Below the pieces are notes generated by a model. It saw nothing but the letters and a program-made list of their open reading frames with translations. It was not told the DNA's origin and searched no databases. The translations under genes were made by a program, and so were the position numbers. From positions 1 to 23,605 of the IMG/VR virus record IMGVR_UViG_3300050015_000134: a stretch of DNA of 23,605 nucleotides, one strand, 5' to 3'. Below, piece by piece: positions 7,724-23,605 of this stretch. The DNA comes from a virus. Each line of letters starts with the position of its first letter. The first letter of the stretch is position 1.

Positions 7724-7751
7724 ACAAACAAAATAACCCCCTCCGGGGTTA
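7724..7751 (-). terminator. terminator of the recombinase gene; palindromic repeat copy 2
   Basis: TAACCCC (7734-7740) pairs with GGGGTTA (7745-7751) around CTCC. Read on the minus strand, the stem is followed by TTTTGTTTGT. It abuts the recombinase stop codon. Positions 7732-7751 repeat 7361-7380 exactly. Confidence 0.7.
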
Positions 7752-8330
7752 CAGATTAATCATATTATACACGTCGGCAATATCATCCTGGGTAATGCCA
7801 ATGTAACACAGCGTTTCCCGTTGTGATGCATGGTTAAATATTATCTGTATGCGTTCTAGTGGCACACCGCCTTGGTAGGCGTGGTATCCCCACGTCTTAC
7901 GCATACTGTGAGTCCCTATCTGTTCCTTAATGCCGACCCACTCAGCGGCCTCGTTAAGTATTGACCATGCTTGTTGTCTGGTTATGGGTTGTTCAGCATT
8001 CTTCTTGGAAGCGAACAGTGGCTTATCTAAATCAATACATTTAAGCGTGGCTGCATATTCTTGTATTGCCTTCGCTGCACTTTTGTTAATGTTAAAATGC
8101 TTGCGCTTTTTGGTTTTTTTCTCGTGAAGAATAATGCTATCCTGCGCCTTACCGTTGGTGGTCATAGCGTCACCAACTGTAAGCTTTAGTATGTCGGATA
8201 TGCGTAGTCCTGAGTTTATGCCAATAACAAACAACAGATGATTTCTCATGCCAAAACACCTATTTGCCAATAGGTGTTTTTTTATGGCCTCGATCTTCTG
8301 TATGTCGCGGATAGGTTGAACTAGTTCCAT
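7749..8330 (-). CDS. minimal tyrosine recombinase
   Basis: 193 residues from ATG 8330, which has GGGGTGAT just upstream; the frame is open to 8375 but without a ribosome site. All catalytic residues of the phage-integrase/Xer family are visible: R43 in SGLRISDILKL, a basic turn K71-K77 holding the lysine, H141-x-x-R144 in THSMRKTWGYHAY, H167 in FNHASQRET and the nucleophile Y176 in LCYIGIT. The N-terminal DNA-binding part is only about 25 residues, so there is no full core-binding or arm-binding domain. The length resembles FimB/FimE-type invertases and small phage Xer-like proteins. It may resolve dimers, invert a switch or act in regulation; integration without the usual domain is less likely. 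It is transcribed against the flanking late genes. Confidence 0.9.
   Translation of the reverse strand: MELVQPIRDIQKIEAIKKHLLANRCFGMRNHLLFVIGINSGLRISDILKLTVGDAMTTNGKAQDSIILHEKKTKKRKHFNINKSAAKAIQEYAATLKCIDLDKPLFASKKNAEQPITRQQAWSILNEAAEWVGIKEQIGTHSMRKTWGYHAYQGGVPLERIQIIFNHASQRETLCYIGITQDDIADVYNMINL
8253..8283 (+). terminator. 28-bp perfect palindrome inside the recombinase gene; antisense terminator or dif-like site
   Basis: AAAACACCTATT (8253-8264) pairs with AATAGGTGTTTT (8269-8280) across TGCC, and TTT follows on the plus strand. It can act as an intragenic terminator for plus-strand readthrough. It can also be read as two 11-bp arms around a 6-bp centre (TTGCCA), the layout of Xer/dif core sites. 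It covers codons near residues 17-26 of the recombinase. Confidence 0.65.
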
Positions 8331-8360
8331 GTGTATCACCCCTTTAACTTTACTTAATCC

Positions 8361-8389
8361 ATTATATCGCAACAATTGTAAGATTGCAA
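8361..8389 (-). promoter_or_regulatory. promoter of the recombinase gene
   Basis: On the minus strand TTGCAA (8389-8384), 17 bases, TATAAT (8366-8361), with predicted start near 8354, 24 bases ahead of the start codon. The -10 is a perfect consensus. Confidence 0.7.
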
Positions 8390-8467: not shown

Positions 8468-10150
8468 ATGCCGCCAAAAAAACAGCAGCCAATGACCGAT
8501 AAACAGGCAGACAACCTCCGCAAACTGCGCGATGATTTTACCTTTTATGCGCCTACAATGTTGCAGATACGGACAAAGGTAGGGGAATTAGTCCCCTTTG
8601 AACTTAACTATATGCAACAACGGATAAATGCTGAAATTGAGCGACAAAGGGCATTAAATAAGCCCGTGCGAATCATTGTCCTCAAGGCAAGGCAAATGGG
8701 TTGTTCCACGTTAACCGAAGGACGGTTATTCCACCAAACCACCATGCACAAACTGACTACTTCAATGATTGTAGCGCATAAAGATGACGCATCAACCAAC
8801 CTGTTTAATATGAGCAAATTGTTTTACGAGTGTATGCCGGAGGAGTTGCGGCCAATGCGCAAGGCTTCTAACGCTAAGGAGCTTGTATTTGAAAACCCGA
8901 CTACCAACGCCAAGGAAAAGGCGGCCAACCCAGGGTTGAGAAGTAAGATTAAGATTGAAACCGCGGGGGCAGAGGGTGTTGGTCGTTCAGATACCCTACA
9001 CAATGTTCATATTTCAGAGTTGGCGCACTGGAAGCCAAAGGAGAAGGTAAAAGAAATCATGGCAGGTCTACTCCAGGCTGTGCCTAACACCCCAAACAGC
9101 ATGATTATTGTAGAATCAACCGCCAACGGTGTAGGCGGTTATTTTTATGATATGTGGCAGTTGTCCAAGGAAGGTAAAAACGACTTTGTGCCTCTGTTCT
9201 TTGCCTGGTTTGAACACCCCGAGTATCGGATGCCTGTGCTTGACGGCTTCATGTTAGACCCAGAAGAACGGGAACTGAGGGATCTCTACCATCTCGACGA
9301 TGAGCAGTTAGTGTGGCGACGTTGGTGTATAGCAAACGACTGTAACGGTGACAAGGAGATATTTAAACAGGAATACCCTTCAAATGACATAGAGGCGTTC
9401 CTTTCTTCTGGGCGACCCGTTTTTAATACAGCGATACTTAATGCTATGCTCCAAGAGACAAAGGCCACCCCCCCCAACTGGGTAGGCAATATGACCGAGG
9501 AAAACGGGCGTGTGAAATTCGCCCCGCAGCAAAAAGGATTCCTATCTATTTGGAAGAAGCCGAAAGAAGGCCACGAGTATGTTATCTCTGCCGACGTCGC
9601 CGAAGGGCTGGCGCACGGTGACTACTCCTCTGCCGACGTGATTGACCGCAAGACATTGGAGCAGGTGGCACAATGGCATGGTCACATAGACCCTGACATG
9701 TTCGGGGAGTTTGAGTTGTATCGGCTGGCGAAGTTCTACAATCTGGCCTTTATCGTTCCGGAGGTAAACAACCACGGGCTTACTACCGTAACGTCGCTAA
9801 AGAAGAAATACAGGCGCATCTACCGCAGACGCACGGTGGACAAGATCAGCAACAAGGCACGGCAGGAGTACGGTTTTCAGACTACAACTAAGACCAAGCC
9901 CCTAGCCATAGACAAGGCTGCTGAGTGCATCCGCGAGCGGTACGTTAAGATAAACTGCAAGGAAACGGTAGAGGAGTGTCTTACCTATGTGCGAGACGAT
10001 AGAGGGGCCACCAACGCCCAGCAGGGCCGTTATGATGACCGCGTGATGTCGCTGGCCATTGGCCTGTATGCAAACTACGAGGTGCCGTTTACAGAGGTTG
10101 ACGACGAAGATGTGGAATACGAAATCGCATTCGGACGAACTGGGTACTAA
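8468..10150 (+). CDS. terL: terminase large subunit
   Basis: 560 residues, the usual length. The ATPase half has a Walker A variant KARQMGCST (residues 73-81), Walker B with catalytic glutamate VHISE (180-184), and the coupling motif VESTANG (215-221). The nuclease half has the RNase H-like acidic residues D376 (ISADVAEG), E432 (VPEVNNHG) and D523/D524 (RYDDRVMS). The protein packages DNA through the portal and cuts the concatemer. AAGAAGG precedes the ATG. It is first in the uninterrupted head-gene series. The small subunit lies far upstream, which is unusual. Confidence 0.97.
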   Translation: MPPKKQQPMTDKQADNLRKLRDDFTFYAPTMLQIRTKVGELVPFELNYMQQRINAEIERQRALNKPVRIIVLKARQMGCSTLTEGRLFHQTTMHKLTTSMIVAHKDDASTNLFNMSKLFYECMPEELRPMRKASNAKELVFENPTTNAKEKAANPGLRSKIKIETAGAEGVGRSDTLHNVHISELAHWKPKEKVKEIMAGLLQAVPNTPNSMIIVESTANGVGGYFYDMWQLSKEGKNDFVPLFFAWFEHPEYRMPVLDGFMLDPEERELRDLYHLDDEQLVWRRWCIANDCNGDKEIFKQEYPSNDIEAFLSSGRPVFNTAILNAMLQETKATPPNWVGNMTEENGRVKFAPQQKGFLSIWKKPKEGHEYVISADVAEGLAHGDYSSADVIDRKTLEQVAQWHGHIDPDMFGEFELYRLAKFYNLAFIVPEVNNHGLTTVTSLKKKYRRIYRRRTVDKISNKARQEYGFQTTTKTKPLAIDKAAECIRERYVKINCKETVEECLTYVRDDRGATNAQQGRYDDRVMSLAIGLYANYEVPFTEVDDEDVEYEIAFGRTGY

Positions 10151-13647: not shown

Positions 13648-14799
13648 ATGGCAGCTATTACAGGAGTAAGAGATACTAATACCACGCTTGCAGCAAAACT
13701 TAAAATCGACATGTCCGAGAAGATTGCTCTATTACGGCCTTCTGCCGCCCCATTTATTACGTTTCTGAAGAGGGCCAAGGGCAACACCATGGCCGCTAAT
13801 AACCCTAAATTCTCGTGGCTCGAAGACGATCTGGACGCACGTTGGGACGCCATCAACGCTGCGGCTGGTTACGCCACTGGCATCACTGATGTGGTGGTAG
13901 TCAACATTACCTACTTCTCCGTTGGTGACATTATAAAGATCCCGAGAACCGGAGAATGTGTTCTAGTTACGGTAGTTACGACAGGCACCAGCACACTGAC
14001 TGTTCTACGTGCCTACGGCACTACCGTAGCCGCAGCCATTGTGGATAAAGACCCCCTGGTTATCATCGGTAACGCCAACGAAGAGGGCGCAGGGGTTCGC
14101 ACCATTAAGTCCTTTAGCGAGACTGAGGTATATAACTTGTGCCAGATTTTTAAAACTCCATTTGGCGTTACAAACACCCAGAACGCCACCGACATGTATG
14201 GCGGCAACGATTTAAGCTACCAACAGAAGAAGAAAGGCATTGAGCATACTGTAGACATTGCCAGAGCCTTCTACTTCGGAGAATTGAAACTAGACACCAC
14301 CGGCACCCACCCGCGCAGGACTACTAGCGGCTTGCTGAAATTTATGGCTAAGAACAACTACGACGCTTCCGGTGCACTGACTCAGAGTGAGTTTGACCAG
14401 AACGTCTGCGAAGTGGCGTTTAAGTACGGTAGCAAAGAAAAACTCATGCTGGCATCTGCCCGCATCCTTTCCGTAATAAACGGCTGGGCACTTGGCAAAC
14501 TAGAAATATCCCAGGGAGAGGACACCTTCGGCCTGTCTGTAACTAAGTATGTGTCTCCCTTCGGCGTGCTAAACATCGTCTATGAACCTCTCTTTGAGGG
14601 TGTTGTTTACGGTGGCCAGGCCGCAATCATCGACGTGGAGAACGTCAGATACCGTCCACTGAAAGGCCGCGATACTTCACTCTCGACCAACATCCAAGCC
14701 AACGACATCGACGGTCGCACCGACCAGTATCTTACCGAGGCCGGCCTGGAAGTACGCCTGCCTGAGACCCACGCTCTACTCACCGGAGTTACATCGTAA
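13648..14799 (+). CDS. major capsid protein (SU10-type, HK97 fold)
   Basis: 383 residues. AAAAGGAGTG precedes the ATG. The sequence matches the SU10 major-capsid pattern: an N-terminal arm (PFITFLKRAKGNTMAANNPKF with FSWLEDDLDARW), a central FSVGDIIKIPRTGECVLVTV strand pair, VIIGNANEEGAG, YNLCQIFKTPFGVTNTQNA, EHTVDIARAFYFGELKL, and a C-terminal SPFGVLNIVYEPLFEG with LPETHALLTGV. This forms the icosahedral shell. No N-terminal prohead protease processing domain is visible, in keeping with a separate scaffold gene. Confidence 0.92.
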   Translation: MAAITGVRDTNTTLAAKLKIDMSEKIALLRPSAAPFITFLKRAKGNTMAANNPKFSWLEDDLDARWDAINAAAGYATGITDVVVVNITYFSVGDIIKIPRTGECVLVTVVTTGTSTLTVLRAYGTTVAAAIVDKDPLVIIGNANEEGAGVRTIKSFSETEVYNLCQIFKTPFGVTNTQNATDMYGGNDLSYQQKKKGIEHTVDIARAFYFGELKLDTTGTHPRRTTSGLLKFMAKNNYDASGALTQSEFDQNVCEVAFKYGSKEKLMLASARILSVINGWALGKLEISQGEDTFGLSVTKYVSPFGVLNIVYEPLFEGVVYGGQAAIIDVENVRYRPLKGRDTSLSTNIQANDIDGRTDQYLTEAGLEVRLPETHALLTGVTS

Positions 14800-17557: not shown

Positions 17558-20500
17558 ATGGCATACGACCGCATAAAACAGCGCACAGGCCGCAATCGAG
17601 GCCGCAACTCCCAACCCCTCTCGGTACCTCAGCAGGACTGGCGAGGGGTTAACTATGTGGACGACATCTATTCTATAGCCGCGCATCAACTCCCGTTTGC
17701 CCAAAACGTTGACCTGGGCAACCCCATCGGCAGCATCACAAAACGGGCAGGCCGCGAATCGCTGTTTGCCTCTCTTGGAGCCGGTCAGGTGTTGGGCCTG
17801 CACGCTTGGGAGCATAGTGACGGAGACAAGTTGATCGAGGCATGGGGAAAGAACCTCTACCTGCTGTCCGGCGCATCCGGTAGCATTGCCAAGACCTCGC
17901 AGGCTGATTGGGAAGCAGGGGTACGGTCACATATTGACACAACCACCTCACCCGGTGACATCCAGATGGTCACCGGCACTGACTTCACTGAAGAGGACAC
18001 GCTGACCGCCGACTTTGACGGTACGCACAGTCACACCAAGGCGGTTAGTGACCATGTGGAGTTAGTTCCTGCTGATACTGCGGTTAACGGAATTACCACG
18101 CTTGGTGCCACTTCTATATTTACCACTAGTGGCCACGATGAGGTTGGTTGGAAGTTTACAGTAGGGGCCAAGGCGCTTACCTGTACGAAACTAAGGCTGT
18201 ATGCAGGAAGTACTGGTAGCAAGACCGTTCGGTTATGGCGGGTAAGCGACAAGGCGTTGCTTGCCTCAGTGAATGTTTCAAGCGTTGACGGGGTATGGGT
18301 AGAGGCATCAATAACCCCCGTGACCATTGCGGCGAATACGGCCTATGTGGTTTCCTACGACCTTAGCGCTGGTAAGAATTATAGGACTGTCCCAAGAACA
18401 TCCAACACCTACAGTTCCGTGATTACCTGTAATGAAGGCCGTTATCTCGCGTCTGGCGGTGGCACTTTTCCCACGACCGTTGATAGCACCGACATCCAGG
18501 GTATCGTGGATATCGTTATCACCGACGCCTATTACAACACCGCCGGTGTCTACACCCACCACGAGCAGAACATAAGCGCGGCGAGAGAGATTGCAAACGC
18601 CACGATAACCTACGACAAAACCACCCCGGCTAATACCACTCTAACAGTTGAGGCCAGGGTTTCAACCGATGGAGGAGCGAACTGGGGCGCATGGACGGCT
18701 AGGGCAAGCGGTGAAGCAATAATTACCGCTGGAACAGACGTAAGCGGCTACCGTGTTCAGTGGAGAACAAACCTTGCGTCAACAGATGGGGTGAATACGC
18801 CCACACTAAACAGCGTAACGGTATCCGTGGTTGCGGTGCATTATGCCGAAGGGATATGGGAATCACCCGCGTACGACCTGGGCAACACCCCCTTGACGGC
18901 AACCCTGTCATGGGTGGCAACCACCCCGGCAGGTACGACCGTAACGGGTTACGCCGCAGGGTCCGGAAATGGTACGGTGTTCGGTGACTACCAGGAGTTA
19001 ACAGCAATCGGGGATGCGATCCCATTGTCGCGGTTCATCAAGGTAAAGTTTGTTTTAGCAAGTCCGACGAGCACTACGCCCACGGCAAGCAGTCTACTGG
19101 TTAGCTACTCAACCTCCTACACCCAGGCGCACAAGCTGGACATATCTCCCCTGGGCAGGACAGCCAACGAGCTTACAGGCAACCGTGTGCGGATGCAGGA
19201 CTATGATGACAGGTGCTATTGTGCGGACGACTTGAGGTCGTTTGTTCTGTATGTGGACGATGCTACGGCAGTCACCGGGACGGCGCAGGCGGGAGCCGCG
19301 ACCACGATTAGGCTAGCGGCAGGCGCCTCAGCAGTCAACGACTTTTTCAATAACGCTTTTATCACTATCACCGGGGGAACGGGAGTAGGCCAGGTACGGT
19401 TCATCTCCGACTACAACGGATCTACCAAGGACGCCACGGTAGCGGCATGGACGACCAACCCGGCGAACGATTCAACCTATGCCATCGGTTCAGCCGTGAA
19501 GGCACGCAAGGCTGGGGTAGATGCACCAGCGGCGTCCCTGACCTCTGCGGCAGGGGCAGGAACGGGTTTGACGGGCAACTACTACTATAAGTATACCTAC
19601 GTCAACGCTGACGGCTACGAGAGTAACCCTTCGCCTGCAAGCACGGTGCTGAACCTGTCAAACAAGGATGCAGCATTATCCGTCATTGCAGTAGGTGGAG
19701 TAACGATTGCATCAAGGAAGATTTACCGCACCAAGGCAGGCGGCTCGGTCTATTACTACGTCCACACTATTGCCGACAACACCACGACGACCTACACGGA
19801 CGCTGCGGCTGACGGGACACTGACCGAACTCATGCTGGACAACAACAACATCCCGCCTAACGCCTCGATAGTGTTTGAGTTCTTGTCGTATATGTTCTAT
19901 GCCAACAATGACGAATTATGGTTCTCAAAGGCTGGATCACCGGAGCAGGTTCCAAACATCACCGGTGACCGGACGCTGATTGTCTGCCCGAGTACAATTT
20001 TGGACATCAAGAGTAATCCGATGGCCTTGATTCCGCAGGGCGAGAACTTCATTGCACCGATAACGACCAATACAGGTTTTGTCTTTGACAGCGACCCAAC
20101 CATTGACACCACGCGCATGAAGCTAATCGACAAGAACGGCTCACTCTCCTTCGAGGCAAGCGACATTTGCATCGACCCACAGATGAGAAGTATCCTGGTG
20201 TTCCCGACGAATACGGGCGTTAGGTTATTGCTCCCAGGCTTGCAGGAGGAATCCATTGAGTCTGTGCCATTGAGCAGAAATATCCAGACTTACTTTGACC
20301 GCACGGTGAACCGGGGGAGCATGGCCGGGATTTTCTTTAACTCCTACTACATTTTGTCGATGGAATACCAAGACCCGGCCAAGGTGTCGTCTGAGTGGTT
20401 GACGTTCTGCTACGATTTTCGGACTAGCGAATGGTACGGGCCGTGGACGTTTGGGGCTTCCTGCTACTGTATTAGTGGGGCCGTGCTGTATGCTGGCGAC

Positions 20501-20899
20501 CCGGCAGTAGGTAAGATATATCACATGTTCAGCGGCAATTCCGATGATGGGTCGAACGTCAAAATGGTAGCAGACCTGCAAATGCTATCGCCGGCCGGGG
20601 AGAACCATATCCACAAGTTCAACAACTTCATGGCCATGGTGAGCGCAGAGAGTAATACAGTTTCGACGACCATTGCCGCCAAGGTGGATGATAGGGAGGC
20701 TACTATCAACCTGGGCGTTCTGACAGATGCCTTCATCGGAGAGAAGCGGCCTGGGCATGACAACATCAGGAGCAAGAAGTACAAAATCCCTCTGGCGAGG
20801 GGGAGCACGTTGTCTTACAGGATTACGGATGATAGCGTGAATCCGTTTAGCTTGCAGAAAATTATTACCGAATGTACGCCGTTGCCACTAAAAGGATAA
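17558..20899 (+). CDS. large tail-hub/nozzle-like protein with inserted beta domains
   Basis: 1113 residues from ATG 17558, two bases after the preceding stop. The N-terminus (GVNYVDDIYSIAAHQLPFAQ, then a GSITKRAGRESL motif) is the signature of short-tail stabilisation or nozzle proteins. The C-terminal ~270 residues (YMFYANNDELWFSKAGSPEQ, FVFDSDP, LVFPTNTGVRLL, FCYDFRTSEWYGPW) read as beta-propeller strands, as in P22 gp10-type hubs. Inserted between are a DUF4082-like module (~190-325: GWKFTVGAKALTCTKLRLYA, TVRLWRVSDKALLASV, NTAYVVSYDLSAG), two sandwich repeats (~345-530), an ITGGTGVGQVRFISDYNG module and an FN3-like domain (YYYKYTYVNADGYESNPSP). It closes the head and forms the short tail; the inserts may bind host sugars. 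It ends at a UUCG-capped hairpin. Confidence 0.8.
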   Translation: MAYDRIKQRTGRNRGRNSQPLSVPQQDWRGVNYVDDIYSIAAHQLPFAQNVDLGNPIGSITKRAGRESLFASLGAGQVLGLHAWEHSDGDKLIEAWGKNLYLLSGASGSIAKTSQADWEAGVRSHIDTTTSPGDIQMVTGTDFTEEDTLTADFDGTHSHTKAVSDHVELVPADTAVNGITTLGATSIFTTSGHDEVGWKFTVGAKALTCTKLRLYAGSTGSKTVRLWRVSDKALLASVNVSSVDGVWVEASITPVTIAANTAYVVSYDLSAGKNYRTVPRTSNTYSSVITCNEGRYLASGGGTFPTTVDSTDIQGIVDIVITDAYYNTAGVYTHHEQNISAAREIANATITYDKTTPANTTLTVEARVSTDGGANWGAWTARASGEAIITAGTDVSGYRVQWRTNLASTDGVNTPTLNSVTVSVVAVHYAEGIWESPAYDLGNTPLTATLSWVATTPAGTTVTGYAAGSGNGTVFGDYQELTAIGDAIPLSRFIKVKFVLASPTSTTPTASSLLVSYSTSYTQAHKLDISPLGRTANELTGNRVRMQDYDDRCYCADDLRSFVLYVDDATAVTGTAQAGAATTIRLAAGASAVNDFFNNAFITITGGTGVGQVRFISDYNGSTKDATVAAWTTNPANDSTYAIGSAVKARKAGVDAPAASLTSAAGAGTGLTGNYYYKYTYVNADGYESNPSPASTVLNLSNKDAALSVIAVGGVTIASRKIYRTKAGGSVYYYVHTIADNTTTTYTDAAADGTLTELMLDNNNIPPNASIVFEFLSYMFYANNDELWFSKAGSPEQVPNITGDRTLIVCPSTILDIKSNPMALIPQGENFIAPITTNTGFVFDSDPTIDTTRMKLIDKNGSLSFEASDICIDPQMRSILVFPTNTGVRLLLPGLQEESIESVPLSRNIQTYFDRTVNRGSMAGIFFNSYYILSMEYQDPAKVSSEWLTFCYDFRTSEWYGPWTFGASCYCISGAVLYAGDPAVGKIYHMFSGNSDDGSNVKMVADLQMLSPAGENHIHKFNNFMAMVSAESNTVSTTIAAKVDDREATINLGVLTDAFIGEKRPGHDNIRSKKYKIPLARGSTLSYRITDDSVNPFSLQKIITECTPLPLKG

Positions 20900-20921: not shown

Positions 20922-20980
20922 TACATGGGGGCTTGTCTTGGGTTATCATTAATTCAGAATCTAATGTAGGAGTGATACCC

Positions 20981-21295
20981 ATGTACGGCTTGGTTTTAGG
21001 CTTAATGCTCACGGTGGCAACGGCAACTACCCCGATCAACGCACCACCTACAACAAACAGCGAGGTTTTTGGCCCTCCAAGTTATGAGGAGTGGGTGAAA
21101 AATCCTGGCATCAACTACATTGAAGAAGCTAAAATACTGTATCCCGAAGAGTTTAATCAACCACAGACCTATTCCTTTGGATATGAATGTTTACTTAGGC
21201 AAGGAATCATCGGTACACCGGAGGCCGCTTTGATGCACGGCGCGCCACCAGGCATGAAATATGACCCTAAATTGTTCACCAGTACTGATAAGTAA
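20981..21295 (+). CDS. secreted/anchored small protein sharing a module with the next gene
   Basis: 104 residues from ATG 20981, with TAGGAGTGAT upstream (the open frame to 20933 lacks a ribosome site). A hydrophobic N-terminus (LVLGLMLTVATA, residues 4-15) suits a signal peptide or anchor. The body carries PGINYIEEAKILY (42-54), LLRQGIIGTP (71-80) and LMHG (84-87). The same three blocks occur in the same order in the next protein at residues 17-29, 64-73 and 77-80. It therefore looks like a stand-alone copy of that N-terminal module. Function unknown; flanked by strong hairpins on both sides, so it may be expressed on its own. Confidence 0.7.
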   Translation: MYGLVLGLMLTVATATTPINAPPTTNSEVFGPPSYEEWVKNPGINYIEEAKILYPEEFNQPQTYSFGYECLLRQGIIGTPEAALMHGAPPGMKYDPKLFTSTDK

Positions 21296-21337: not shown

Positions 21338-21351
21338 AGGAGGTGCTTATT

Positions 21352-22578
21352 GTGGCAAATGTCAATTACGGACCCAACTTACCCAGCACCACTTCTACCC
21401 CAGGTATAAATTATGCCGACCTAGCTAAAAAACTATATTCAACGTCTTCAACCGGTTCATTGCTTAATGGCACCACTGCCAGCAATGCCCAGAAATCACT
21501 ACTTCCTGGCGCTACCCCTACTTCATCTGCATACAATGACCTGCTTAAAAAGGGCGTTATCGGCGATCCGATGACCGGCCTGATGCATGGCTATTACAAT
21601 GAAAATCCGCTACCAACAGCACCTTCCCTTAACTACTCCATGCCCGATGTTGAACAAATGTCATGGGACGAAGCTCTCCAGCGTGCCGTCGGGATGTACA
21701 CGCCAGCCTACAATACCAGCGTACAGCGTCAGGACAAACAAACATCTGACCAACGCGCGCTACTCCCGCAGATGCTTGCGGCACGGGGTTATCTCAAGGG
21801 TGGCAAGTTGGAGTCCGGAGACAACGCAATCACCCAGGATCAGGCCATGGCCCGGACGGAGCTTGACAACTCCTTCGAAACGCAGAAGCAACAGGCCGCC
21901 AACTCAATCTACGAGGGCGAAACGAACAGGGCTCAGGCGGCGTTAAGCAACCTGCTTGCCCAGCAGAACGCCAAGAACACCAACGCCATGTCACAGTGGC
22001 AGACGCAGTATAACGCGGCACTCCAGAAGGAGCAGAACGCACAGACTACGCTGATGGAGTTGGCACGGATGAACCAGCAAGGGGAGCAGTATAATAAGAC
22101 GTTCGACTACACCAAGGGGCGGGATACTACTCTTGATGCATCAACCGCATCCCAGAAGGCGGCAACTGATGCAGAACAAAGAAGGCAGTTCGATCTAACT
22201 TATGGCCTACAGAAACAGACGACAGATTACAATATTGGCAAGCCGTATTTTGCCCCAAGTAGCGGGGGAGGCATCACCCCATATCAGGGTTATGAAATTG
22301 GCCGCAATGACCAGCAGGATTCGGCTAAGATAGGAGCCCAGGCCAGAGAACTTGCATCTAAAGATACCCGTAAATGGGATGAGGCCGCAACCCTAAAATG
22401 GTTAACAGACTCCTATGTTCAGGCAGGTTATGACGCTGGAACGGCTGAACAAATGGCTCGCACAGATCCAAGACTTGCGCCACCAAAAGGAAGTTATTCC
22501 GAAAACGATCTTTACAACTCCTACATCAACGACTTAACCAGGCAACAGTATGGCCTTCCAACCTCAAACCCTCAGTAG
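21352..22578 (+). CDS. Gln/Ala-rich virion protein (zero-frame product)
   Basis: 408 residues from GTG 21352, with AGGAGGTG (21338-21345) upstream. The N-terminal 80 residues hold the PGINY...LLKKGVIG...LMHG module shared with the gene before. The central part is a long polar helix rich in Gln, Ala and Asn (QKQQAANSIYEGETNRAQAA, then WQTQYNAALQKEQNAQTTL), as in rod-like internal or ejection proteins of short-tailed phages. The C-terminus is shorter-range helix and ends SNPQ. The last codons contain the slippery A_AAC_CCT, and a -1 shift there would fuse this protein to the transglycosylase domain downstream to give about 517 residues. Confidence 0.8.
   Translation: MANVNYGPNLPSTTSTPGINYADLAKKLYSTSSTGSLLNGTTASNAQKSLLPGATPTSSAYNDLLKKGVIGDPMTGLMHGYYNENPLPTAPSLNYSMPDVEQMSWDEALQRAVGMYTPAYNTSVQRQDKQTSDQRALLPQMLAARGYLKGGKLESGDNAITQDQAMARTELDNSFETQKQQAANSIYEGETNRAQAALSNLLAQQNAKNTNAMSQWQTQYNAALQKEQNAQTTLMELARMNQQGEQYNKTFDYTKGRDTTLDASTASQKAATDAEQRRQFDLTYGLQKQTTDYNIGKPYFAPSSGGGITPYQGYEIGRNDQQDSAKIGAQARELASKDTRKWDEAATLKWLTDSYVQAGYDAGTAEQMARTDPRLAPPKGSYSENDLYNSYINDLTRQQYGLPTSNPQ
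22566..22572 (+). promoter_or_regulatory. candidate -1 ribosomal frameshift site A_AAC_CCT
   Basis: In the zero frame TCA AAC CCT CAG TAG, the heptamer AAACCCT fits X_XXY_YYZ exactly, three bases before the stop codon. A -1 slip re-pairs AAC on AAA and CCT on CCC and enters the transglycosylase frame. A GC-rich stretch with possible GCC/GGC pairing follows (22578-22595). Confidence 0.55.
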
Positions 22579-22904
22579 CCCCTGCGTCTGGCGGCATTGA
22601 CGACTGGATTAATCAGGCGATAAATGTCACGGGGGTAGGGGCCGACTGGGCACCGTATTTAAAATGGCTCGCCGAACATGAAACAACAGGGTTTAATCCC
22701 GAAGCGGTAAACCCTGAAACTGTAGGCGGGGAACATGCTACCGGATTAATGCAAACATTACCATCGACGTTTAATGGTTACAATCCCGGTGGTGATATTT
22801 ACAACCCAGTTGATAATATAGTCGCCGCAATAGGGCATATCAAGTCCCAGTATGGGCATCCATCTAAGGCCGTAAATGGCTGGGCTAGTAGAGGTGGTTA
22901 CTAA
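22572..22904 (+). CDS. lytic transglycosylase (SLT-like) domain in -1 frame, no start codon
   Basis: About 110 residues after the frameshift site. The fold is an SLT/goose-lysozyme-like domain: WAPYLKWLAEHETTGFNPEA with the probable catalytic glutamate encoded at 22680 (HETTG, matching the family ESGG position), ATGLMQTLPSTF (family GLMQ motif), the NPVDNIVAAIGHIKSQYG helix and a WASRGGY end. It would cut peptidoglycan glycan strands, helping DNA entry. The frame is open back to 22449 but contains no ATG, GTG, TTG or CTG before the catalytic glutamate, and there is no ribosome site. It therefore looks like the extension of the 21352 gene. It is coupled to the next gene (TAATG). Confidence 0.8.
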   Translation, partial: SVAPASGGIDDWINQAINVTGVGADWAPYLKWLAEHETTGFNPEAVNPETVGGEHATGLMQTLPSTFNGYNPGGDIYNPVDNIVAAIGHIKSQYGHPSKAVNGWASRGGY

Positions 22905-23605
22905 TGAGACACATCCCGGCATTTGCCTTGAGGGTGCTGACTGACGACATAGACAATGGTTCGCTCAACTACGGAACCCTGGATAACGAATGGAAACAAC
23001 AGCTTGATTCAATCGGCTACACGCCACCTGCGCCTAAACCCATGCCCGAGATACAGGCGGCTGAGGCGCCAGCGCCAGCAGCGAAAAGCTGGCTTGACCA
23101 GCAGAATATACAGATCCCCGGTGGCGAGATTGGGGTATCTAATAGCAACGTCAACCCAGATTTCGCGCAGAATCACCCGACACTCAACCGCGTCCTTGGG
23201 GCTGTCTCTGCACCCATCAATAGGGTTATGGAGAACCCCTGGATGAAACGGGCAGGGCAAACTGGCGCAGAGGTTATGACCACACAGGACAACCCTGACA
23301 AGGTATCTACTGGAAACAGGGTAGGCGACGTTACCGCTGGCCTTTTCGGCGGCCTGATGGGGTTCGCAGAGAACCCCGCATCTCTCGGCGCAAAAGTGTG
23401 GAAGGGCGGCGAGAACCTAATTGGCCAGGCTCTGCCGCTGATCCCGAGACTTGGAACTGCTCCGCAAGCCGTACAGTCTGCGCTGAAAATAGCAGGCGCA
23501 TCTTTGCCGTATGAGGCAACGATGGCAGGGGCTAACAATCGCCCCTTGAACGCTGGAGAAGCGTCGACCGCTGTAGGCTCAAATGTATTGCTTGATTTGG
23601 CATTT
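22904..23605 (+). CDS. large virion/internal protein, 3' partial
   Basis: The ATG overlaps the preceding TAA (TAATG) and has GAGGTGG 6 bases away; the frame stays open to the window end (234 codons). The N-terminal ~75 residues are polar and Pro/Ala-rich (PPAPKPMPEIQAAEAPAPAA). After that come Gly/Ala-rich moderately hydrophobic helices (VGDVTAGLFGGLMGFAENPA, then ALPLIPRLGTAPQAVQSALK), as in very large internal/ejection proteins of short-tailed phages. The C-terminal domains are outside the window, so enzymatic activity cannot be judged. Confidence 0.75.
   Translation, partial: MRHIPAFALRVLTDDIDNGSLNYGTLDNEWKQQLDSIGYTPPAPKPMPEIQAAEAPAPAAKSWLDQQNIQIPGGEIGVSNSNVNPDFAQNHPTLNRVLGAVSAPINRVMENPWMKRAGQTGAEVMTTQDNPDKVSTGNRVGDVTAGLFGGLMGFAENPASLGAKVWKGGENLIGQALPLIPRLGTAPQAVQSALKIAGASLPYEATMAGANNRPLNAGEASTAVGSNVLLDLAF

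Follow-up and report, generated by a model that had tools for sequence, protein, structure and literature searches.

The gp20 protein of phage SU10 is reported to be an ejection protein with transglycosylase activity that degrades the cell wall (PMC9509320), and gp16 of T7 – carried in the virion and used at genome entry – bears a transglycosylase at its N-terminus (PMC8954989). Programmed −1 frameshifting is known from the major capsid proteins of Kuravirus and of T7 and T3, with a GGGAAAG near the capsid stop codon in YF01 (PMC9965538), and from the lambda tail-assembly chaperone G/GT, where a −1 shift close to the 3′ end of the first gene gives rise to a minor, longer form (PMC5009743). Phage A2 is cited for −1 shifts in its capsid and tail proteins (cited in PMC5009743 and PMC7260188), and tail-assembly chaperones make up 2,397 of the 2,476 annotated cases in the PRFect phage set, the other 79 being hypothetical (PMC10885494). 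In retroviruses, a heptamer with a downstream structure underlies Gag/Gag-Pol, placing enzymes on a minority of the co-assembling structural proteins (PMC5009743). The −1 shifts already known in phages are those of tail chaperones and of capsid or tail proteins; the titles, abstracts and passages of the open-access literature covered here describe no frameshift that appends a peptidoglycan-degrading domain, which is not proof of novelty.

The stretch of DNA analysed here, referred to as the window, is a virus record of 23,605 nt (IMG/VR IMGVR_UViG_3300050015_000134, positions 1 to 23,605). In its ejection-protein module, which is that of an SU10-like podovirus, programmed −1 frameshifting very probably gives two products, one of 408 aa and a minor one of 517 aa that has an SLT transglycosylase domain. 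The window holds an SU10-like structural module, with portal (PF23899), capsid (PF17236) and adaptor (PF24175) recognised by Pfam, and a nozzle-like protein that matches phrog_511 in PHROG; the Pfam and PHROG searches identified no tape-measure or long-tail genes, finding the SU10-type portal, capsid and adaptor instead. The gene order runs from the nozzle-like protein through the gene at 21352-22578 and the SLT frame to a large protein cut at the window end, so that the SLT lies in a module 3′ of the tail genes and 5′ of the large terminal protein; the gene at 21352-22578 thus occupies the place at which podoviruses encode their ejection proteins. As the capsid gene occupies 13648-14799, the frameshifted gene at 21352-22578 does not encode the major capsid protein.

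The arrangement both resembles and departs from those of described phage enzymes. SU10 gp20 (Kuravirus, phrog_12507; PF01464, E 1.1e-23) is likewise an SLT protein in the matching ejection module, and SU10 has the same portal and capsid families; yet gp20 is the 260-aa product of an ordinary, separately initiated gene, whereas the window's SLT has no start and would be reached by a −1 shift from the preceding gene. As in T7 gp16, the SLT is found directly before a large terminal protein, but in T7 the domain and the large protein form a single in-frame fusion, so that every copy has the enzyme. Caulobacter phage Kuura, found via its related capsid protein, also has an SLT in the gene directly before the large terminal protein (gp20), although there the domain sits in the N-terminal part of a continuous 647-aa frame.

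All features of the frameshift locus given below, from the ribosome-binding region of the upstream gene to the start of the next gene, lie on the + strand. The upstream, frame-0 gene (21352-22578) has a GTG start, a Shine–Dalgarno-like AGGAGGTG at 21338-21345, 408 codons and a TAG stop at 22576-22578. Its 408-aa product belongs to no Pfam or PHROG family and its fold is not recognised, and because there is no recognised family the label 'ejection protein' rests on gene order; from gene position we infer an ejection-module role for both this protein and the SLT. Its C-terminus is common to a homologous locus on another record, L002 (IMGVR_UViG_3300031669_000014), and its middle part to the 280-aa family of loci L006 and L007. 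The window and L002 proteins are 28% identical overall, with 41 of the 77 residues of the L002 C-terminal segment identical to the window protein. When the 408-aa protein and its 557-aa and 281-aa counterparts from L002 and a further locus, L013 (IMGVR_UViG_3300031825_000068), were searched against INPHARED phages, there was no match, so no cultured phage with the upstream gene was found among them.

The upstream protein is also a mosaic (window 21352-22578, L002 8322-9995, L006 5993-7664, L013 3153-3998): in the window its middle matches the L006 280-aa gene, and in L002 and L013 it contains the family of the L006 271-aa gene, recognisable by the motif WGSDPSxGFQT. The frameshifted enzyme is thus apparently attached to different ejection-module proteins in the window, L002 and L013. 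In addition, the adjacent genes 20933-21295 and 21352-22578 have a short motif in common (LLRQGIIGTPEAALMHG / LLKKGVIGDPMTGLMHG), with 34% identity over 64 aa, suggesting a duplication of an N-terminal segment.

The SLT frame is −1 relative to the frame-0 gene and is open from 22449 to a TAA at 22902-22904. The first-pass annotation had described an intact transglycosylase domain in a frame that opens at 22449 without a usable start, behind a gene that begins at 21352 and ends at 22578 in the other frame, and each of these points holds. The domain matches PF01464 (E 5.2e-9, above the Pfam cut-off) at 22647-22865, with the catalytic Glu codon at 22680-22682, and between 22449 and this codon there is no in-frame ATG, GTG, TTG or CTG – solely ATT, ATT and ATA. 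Unlike virion-associated enzymes of the SU10 gp20 or T7 gp16 type, the domain is therefore not encoded in a normally initiated frame, and gene callers that depend on start codons would omit it or call it too short. An AlphaFold model of the domain, built from a three-row alignment, was poor (pLDDT 62), and a profile search of PDB sequences with the domain gave no match. Between the window and L002 the SLT frame has a pN of 0.23 and a pS of 0.91 (saturated), and it is, by this comparison, under strong purifying selection.

The two frames of the window overlap by 130 nt, and among the 41 phase positions of this overlap the slippery heptamer A_AAC_CCT at 22566-22572 is the sole in-phase XXXYYYZ; the background rate in the window's structural genes is nine in 4,239 in-phase positions. 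The heptamer is in the correct frame-0 phase, and the TAG follows it after a single codon, CAG. A slip at this site would lead into the frame −1 extension (22572-22904), adding 110 residues that carry the SLT domain to 407 encoded in frame 0, for a predicted fusion of 517 residues. To our knowledge, A_AAC_CCT is not among the most efficient bacterial slippery sites. No internal Shine–Dalgarno stimulator was seen by eye upstream of it at the usual distance. Transcriptional slippage was considered as well and is unlikely, because the homopolymers at the site comprise only three or four bases.

The same layout recurs in L002 and L013, which, together with the window, make up three examples on three contigs, all metagenomic, with the window and L002 being related. 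All three share the split, the −1 offset and the lack of a usable start codon, and all keep the catalytic Glu and its motif. In L002, the 557-aa frame ends in ...YGLPTGNPQ* (...YGLPTSNPQ* in the window); the SLT domain behind it, 64-66% identical to that of the window, is read in the −1 frame and lacks a start, the single start-type codon being a GTG at 10052, inside the domain. The 281-aa frame of L013 ends in ...TSPKQ*, and there too the SLT is in the −1 frame and has no start. The overlaps shrink to 49 nt in L002 and 28 nt in L013, and in each the heptamer is the sole in-phase XXXYYYZ, placed exactly one CAG codon before the stop: the junction reads A_AAC_CCT CAG TAG in the window and L002, and C_CCA_AAG CAG TAG in L013. 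Around the site, codon identity at conserved amino acids between the window and L002 is 30-33%; the longest stretch of the region without a difference between them is the 15-nt AAACCCTCAGTAGCC (22566-22580). Conservation flips from one frame to the other at the heptamer, with 9 of 14 residues identical in frame 0 upstream and 15 of 20 in frame −1 downstream. The earlier proposal of a −1 shift at an in-phase X_XXY_YYZ heptamer, giving a product of about 517 residues, thus gains support from the homologues: both split homologues found retain the split and the offset – neither having a continuous frame or a normal SLT start – and the site is identical in L002, with another textbook heptamer taking its place in L013.

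A feature absent from the first-pass annotation is an RNA hairpin downstream of the heptamer, at 22573-22648, with an outer helix (22573-22576/22645-22648), a main stem (22578-22585/22635-22642) and more pairs above. A spacing of 5 nt separates the heptamer from the main stem in the window, and one of 5-6 nt across the three loci, as is usual for −1 signals. Folding of the 78-80 nt 3′ of the heptamer gives −37.6, −46.2 and −24.8 kcal/mol for the window, L002 and L013, respectively, with z-scores of −4.1, −5.1 and −2.0 against dinucleotide shuffles. As the 3′ arm of the hairpin encodes the conserved TGVGADW, synonymous-codon shuffles within the SLT frame were also run, and 25, 12 and 89 of 2,000 such protein-preserving sequences folded as well. 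Taken for each locus alone, the shuffle tests provide moderate evidence.

Covariation is the stronger evidence for the hairpin. With the alignment register set through the homologous 3′-arm codons, 16 pairs – four in the outer helix and 12 in the main stem – are in register across the three loci; L002 and L013 have no broken pair, the window has one. There are three compensatory double changes between the window and L013 and four between L002 and L013, counts that represent support and not a formal test, because the register was chosen from the folds themselves. A search of Rfam gave no match for the region. The hairpin is a candidate stimulatory structure of the −1 signal, and the frameshift signal as a whole is, as far as comparative sequence evidence goes, well supported.

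By the proposed mechanism, most ribosomes would read the gene at 21352 through to the TAG, producing the 408-residue protein, while a minority would slip back by one base at A_AAC_CCT, before CAG-TAG and the strong hairpin, and continue in the SLT frame to 22904, producing a 517-residue protein with a C-terminal lytic transglycosylase. Because their N-terminal parts are common, the two forms would be able to co-assemble, so that a set fraction of subunits would bear a peptidoglycan-cutting domain, to be used at DNA entry. The ratio of the forms, their incorporation into the virion, their ejection and the activity of the enzyme are all predictions that we infer from this arrangement. By analogy with the described systems, the window's phage most likely carries its ejection-module transglycosylase as an optional C-terminal extension. 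That a Gag-Pol-like −1 shift sets the number of peptidoglycan-cutting subunits, with the virion containing a mixed complex of plain and enzyme-bearing ejection proteins, is somewhat favoured, with less confidence than the frameshift itself.

Compared with known frameshifts, the locus resembles the Kuravirus, T7 and T3 capsid genes, in which a −1 shift near the stop codon of a podovirus structural gene also places a C-terminal extension on a minority of copies; the product there is, however, an extended capsid protein, whereas in the window it would be an ejection-module protein gaining an enzyme. Lambda G/GT differs in that the chaperone remains outside the virion and its gene precedes the tape measure, whereas the extension in the window is an SLT domain. 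The likeness to Gag/Gag-Pol is an analogy only, the virus and the proteins being unrelated. If the proposed reading is true, frameshifting would have a new use here, supplying a putative ejection protein with a wall-degrading enzyme, and the locus would illustrate how the amount of a potentially damaging enzyme in a phage particle could be controlled by the phage itself; gene callers would be splitting or missing such enzymes. The prediction is a sharp one, specifying the heptamer, the hairpin and the 517-aa product.

Among the alternatives, the one that survives best accepts a real frameshift and assigns it to termination or expression control – for instance, of the gene at 22904 – and not to dosing of a virion enzyme. 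This gene (22904-23605; the window ends inside it, so that only the N-terminal part of a large protein is encoded) has an ATG that overlaps the TAA of the SLT frame, and the stop-start overlap, TAATG in the window and TAGTG in L002, fits such coupling. However, the next gene has its own Shine–Dalgarno-like purine stretch in all three loci, the genes do not overlap in L013, and the SLT domain itself is under selection, which together make an expression-control role improbable. As for the identity of the large protein, the L002 relative of gene 22904 shows a weak match to 'internal virion protein D' of a marine phage.

Separate production of the SLT protein, by termination and reinitiation at the TAG or from a non-standard start such as ATT, is less probable still. 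The domain begins just 3′ of the TAG, so that coupled reinitiation is geometrically possible, and an in-frame ATT is available at 22596; yet this ATT is GTT in both L002 and L013, the window and L013 lack any ATG, GTG, TTG or CTG ahead of the domain, and the GTG of L002 falls within it. Nor would reinitiation need an in-phase XXXYYYZ that changes in sequence yet keeps its form.

The first-pass annotation had offered as its alternative a single-base indel, natural or from sequencing; on this view, an error of sequencing or assembly, or a fresh mutation, split one continuous gene. The window is a single metagenomic contig, and single-base errors are common in general, but three separate assemblies would each have had to acquire the indel at one and the same place, since in L002 and L013 – other contigs, highly diverged – the offset and the codon at which it occurs are unchanged. 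Nor would an indel arising by chance keep the TAG preceded by a conserved heptamer and CAG, together with a hairpin; with the same offset, conserved site and hairpin in three separate assemblies, an indel artefact or pseudogene is very unlikely. Decay of a formerly fused or separate transglycosylase gene, to which the absence of the SLT frame at this place in L006-L010 and L023 might point by showing that it can be lost, can practically be dismissed given a pN of 0.23 against a saturated pS, a catalytic motif present in all three loci and a frame open to the start of the next gene.

In L006-L010 and L023 the neighbouring genes are present and the SLT frame is absent at the matching place, so that the enzyme is dispensable in some members; the terminal proteins of relatives that were scanned contain no recognised hydrolase, and by these two observations the ejection module is variable. 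Scans of genome_contigs gave no matches. The other SLT matches in the phage and plasmid records examined, including L003, L014 and L016, lie in tape-measure or other continuous proteins and are unsplit.

Some of the related records show further peculiarities. L009/L026 and L002/L005 share the 80,564-base contig IMGVR_UViG_3300031669_000014, on which two different ejection cassettes are separated by about 40 kb. The SLT frame is present in one of them and absent from the other; either the assembly has merged two phages or the cassettes are arranged in tandem. The terminal protein of L023 (5774-10240) is at least 1,489 aa long and includes a segment that resembles a DNA methyltransferase by eye (VIMNPPFSS); it is perhaps a polyvalent injected protein.

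Elsewhere in the window, the nozzle-like protein (17558-20899) has a DUF4082 insertion (PF13313, E 7e-11) where the L006 version has a Laminin_G_3 domain, so the nozzle-like gene would seem to swap lectin-like modules. Directly before the terminase gene, on the opposite strand (7749-8375, −), lies a gene for a protein that by eye is tyrosine-recombinase-like (SGLRISDILKLTV... / HSMRKTWGYHAY...), a possible sign of a temperate lifestyle or of a role in resolution.
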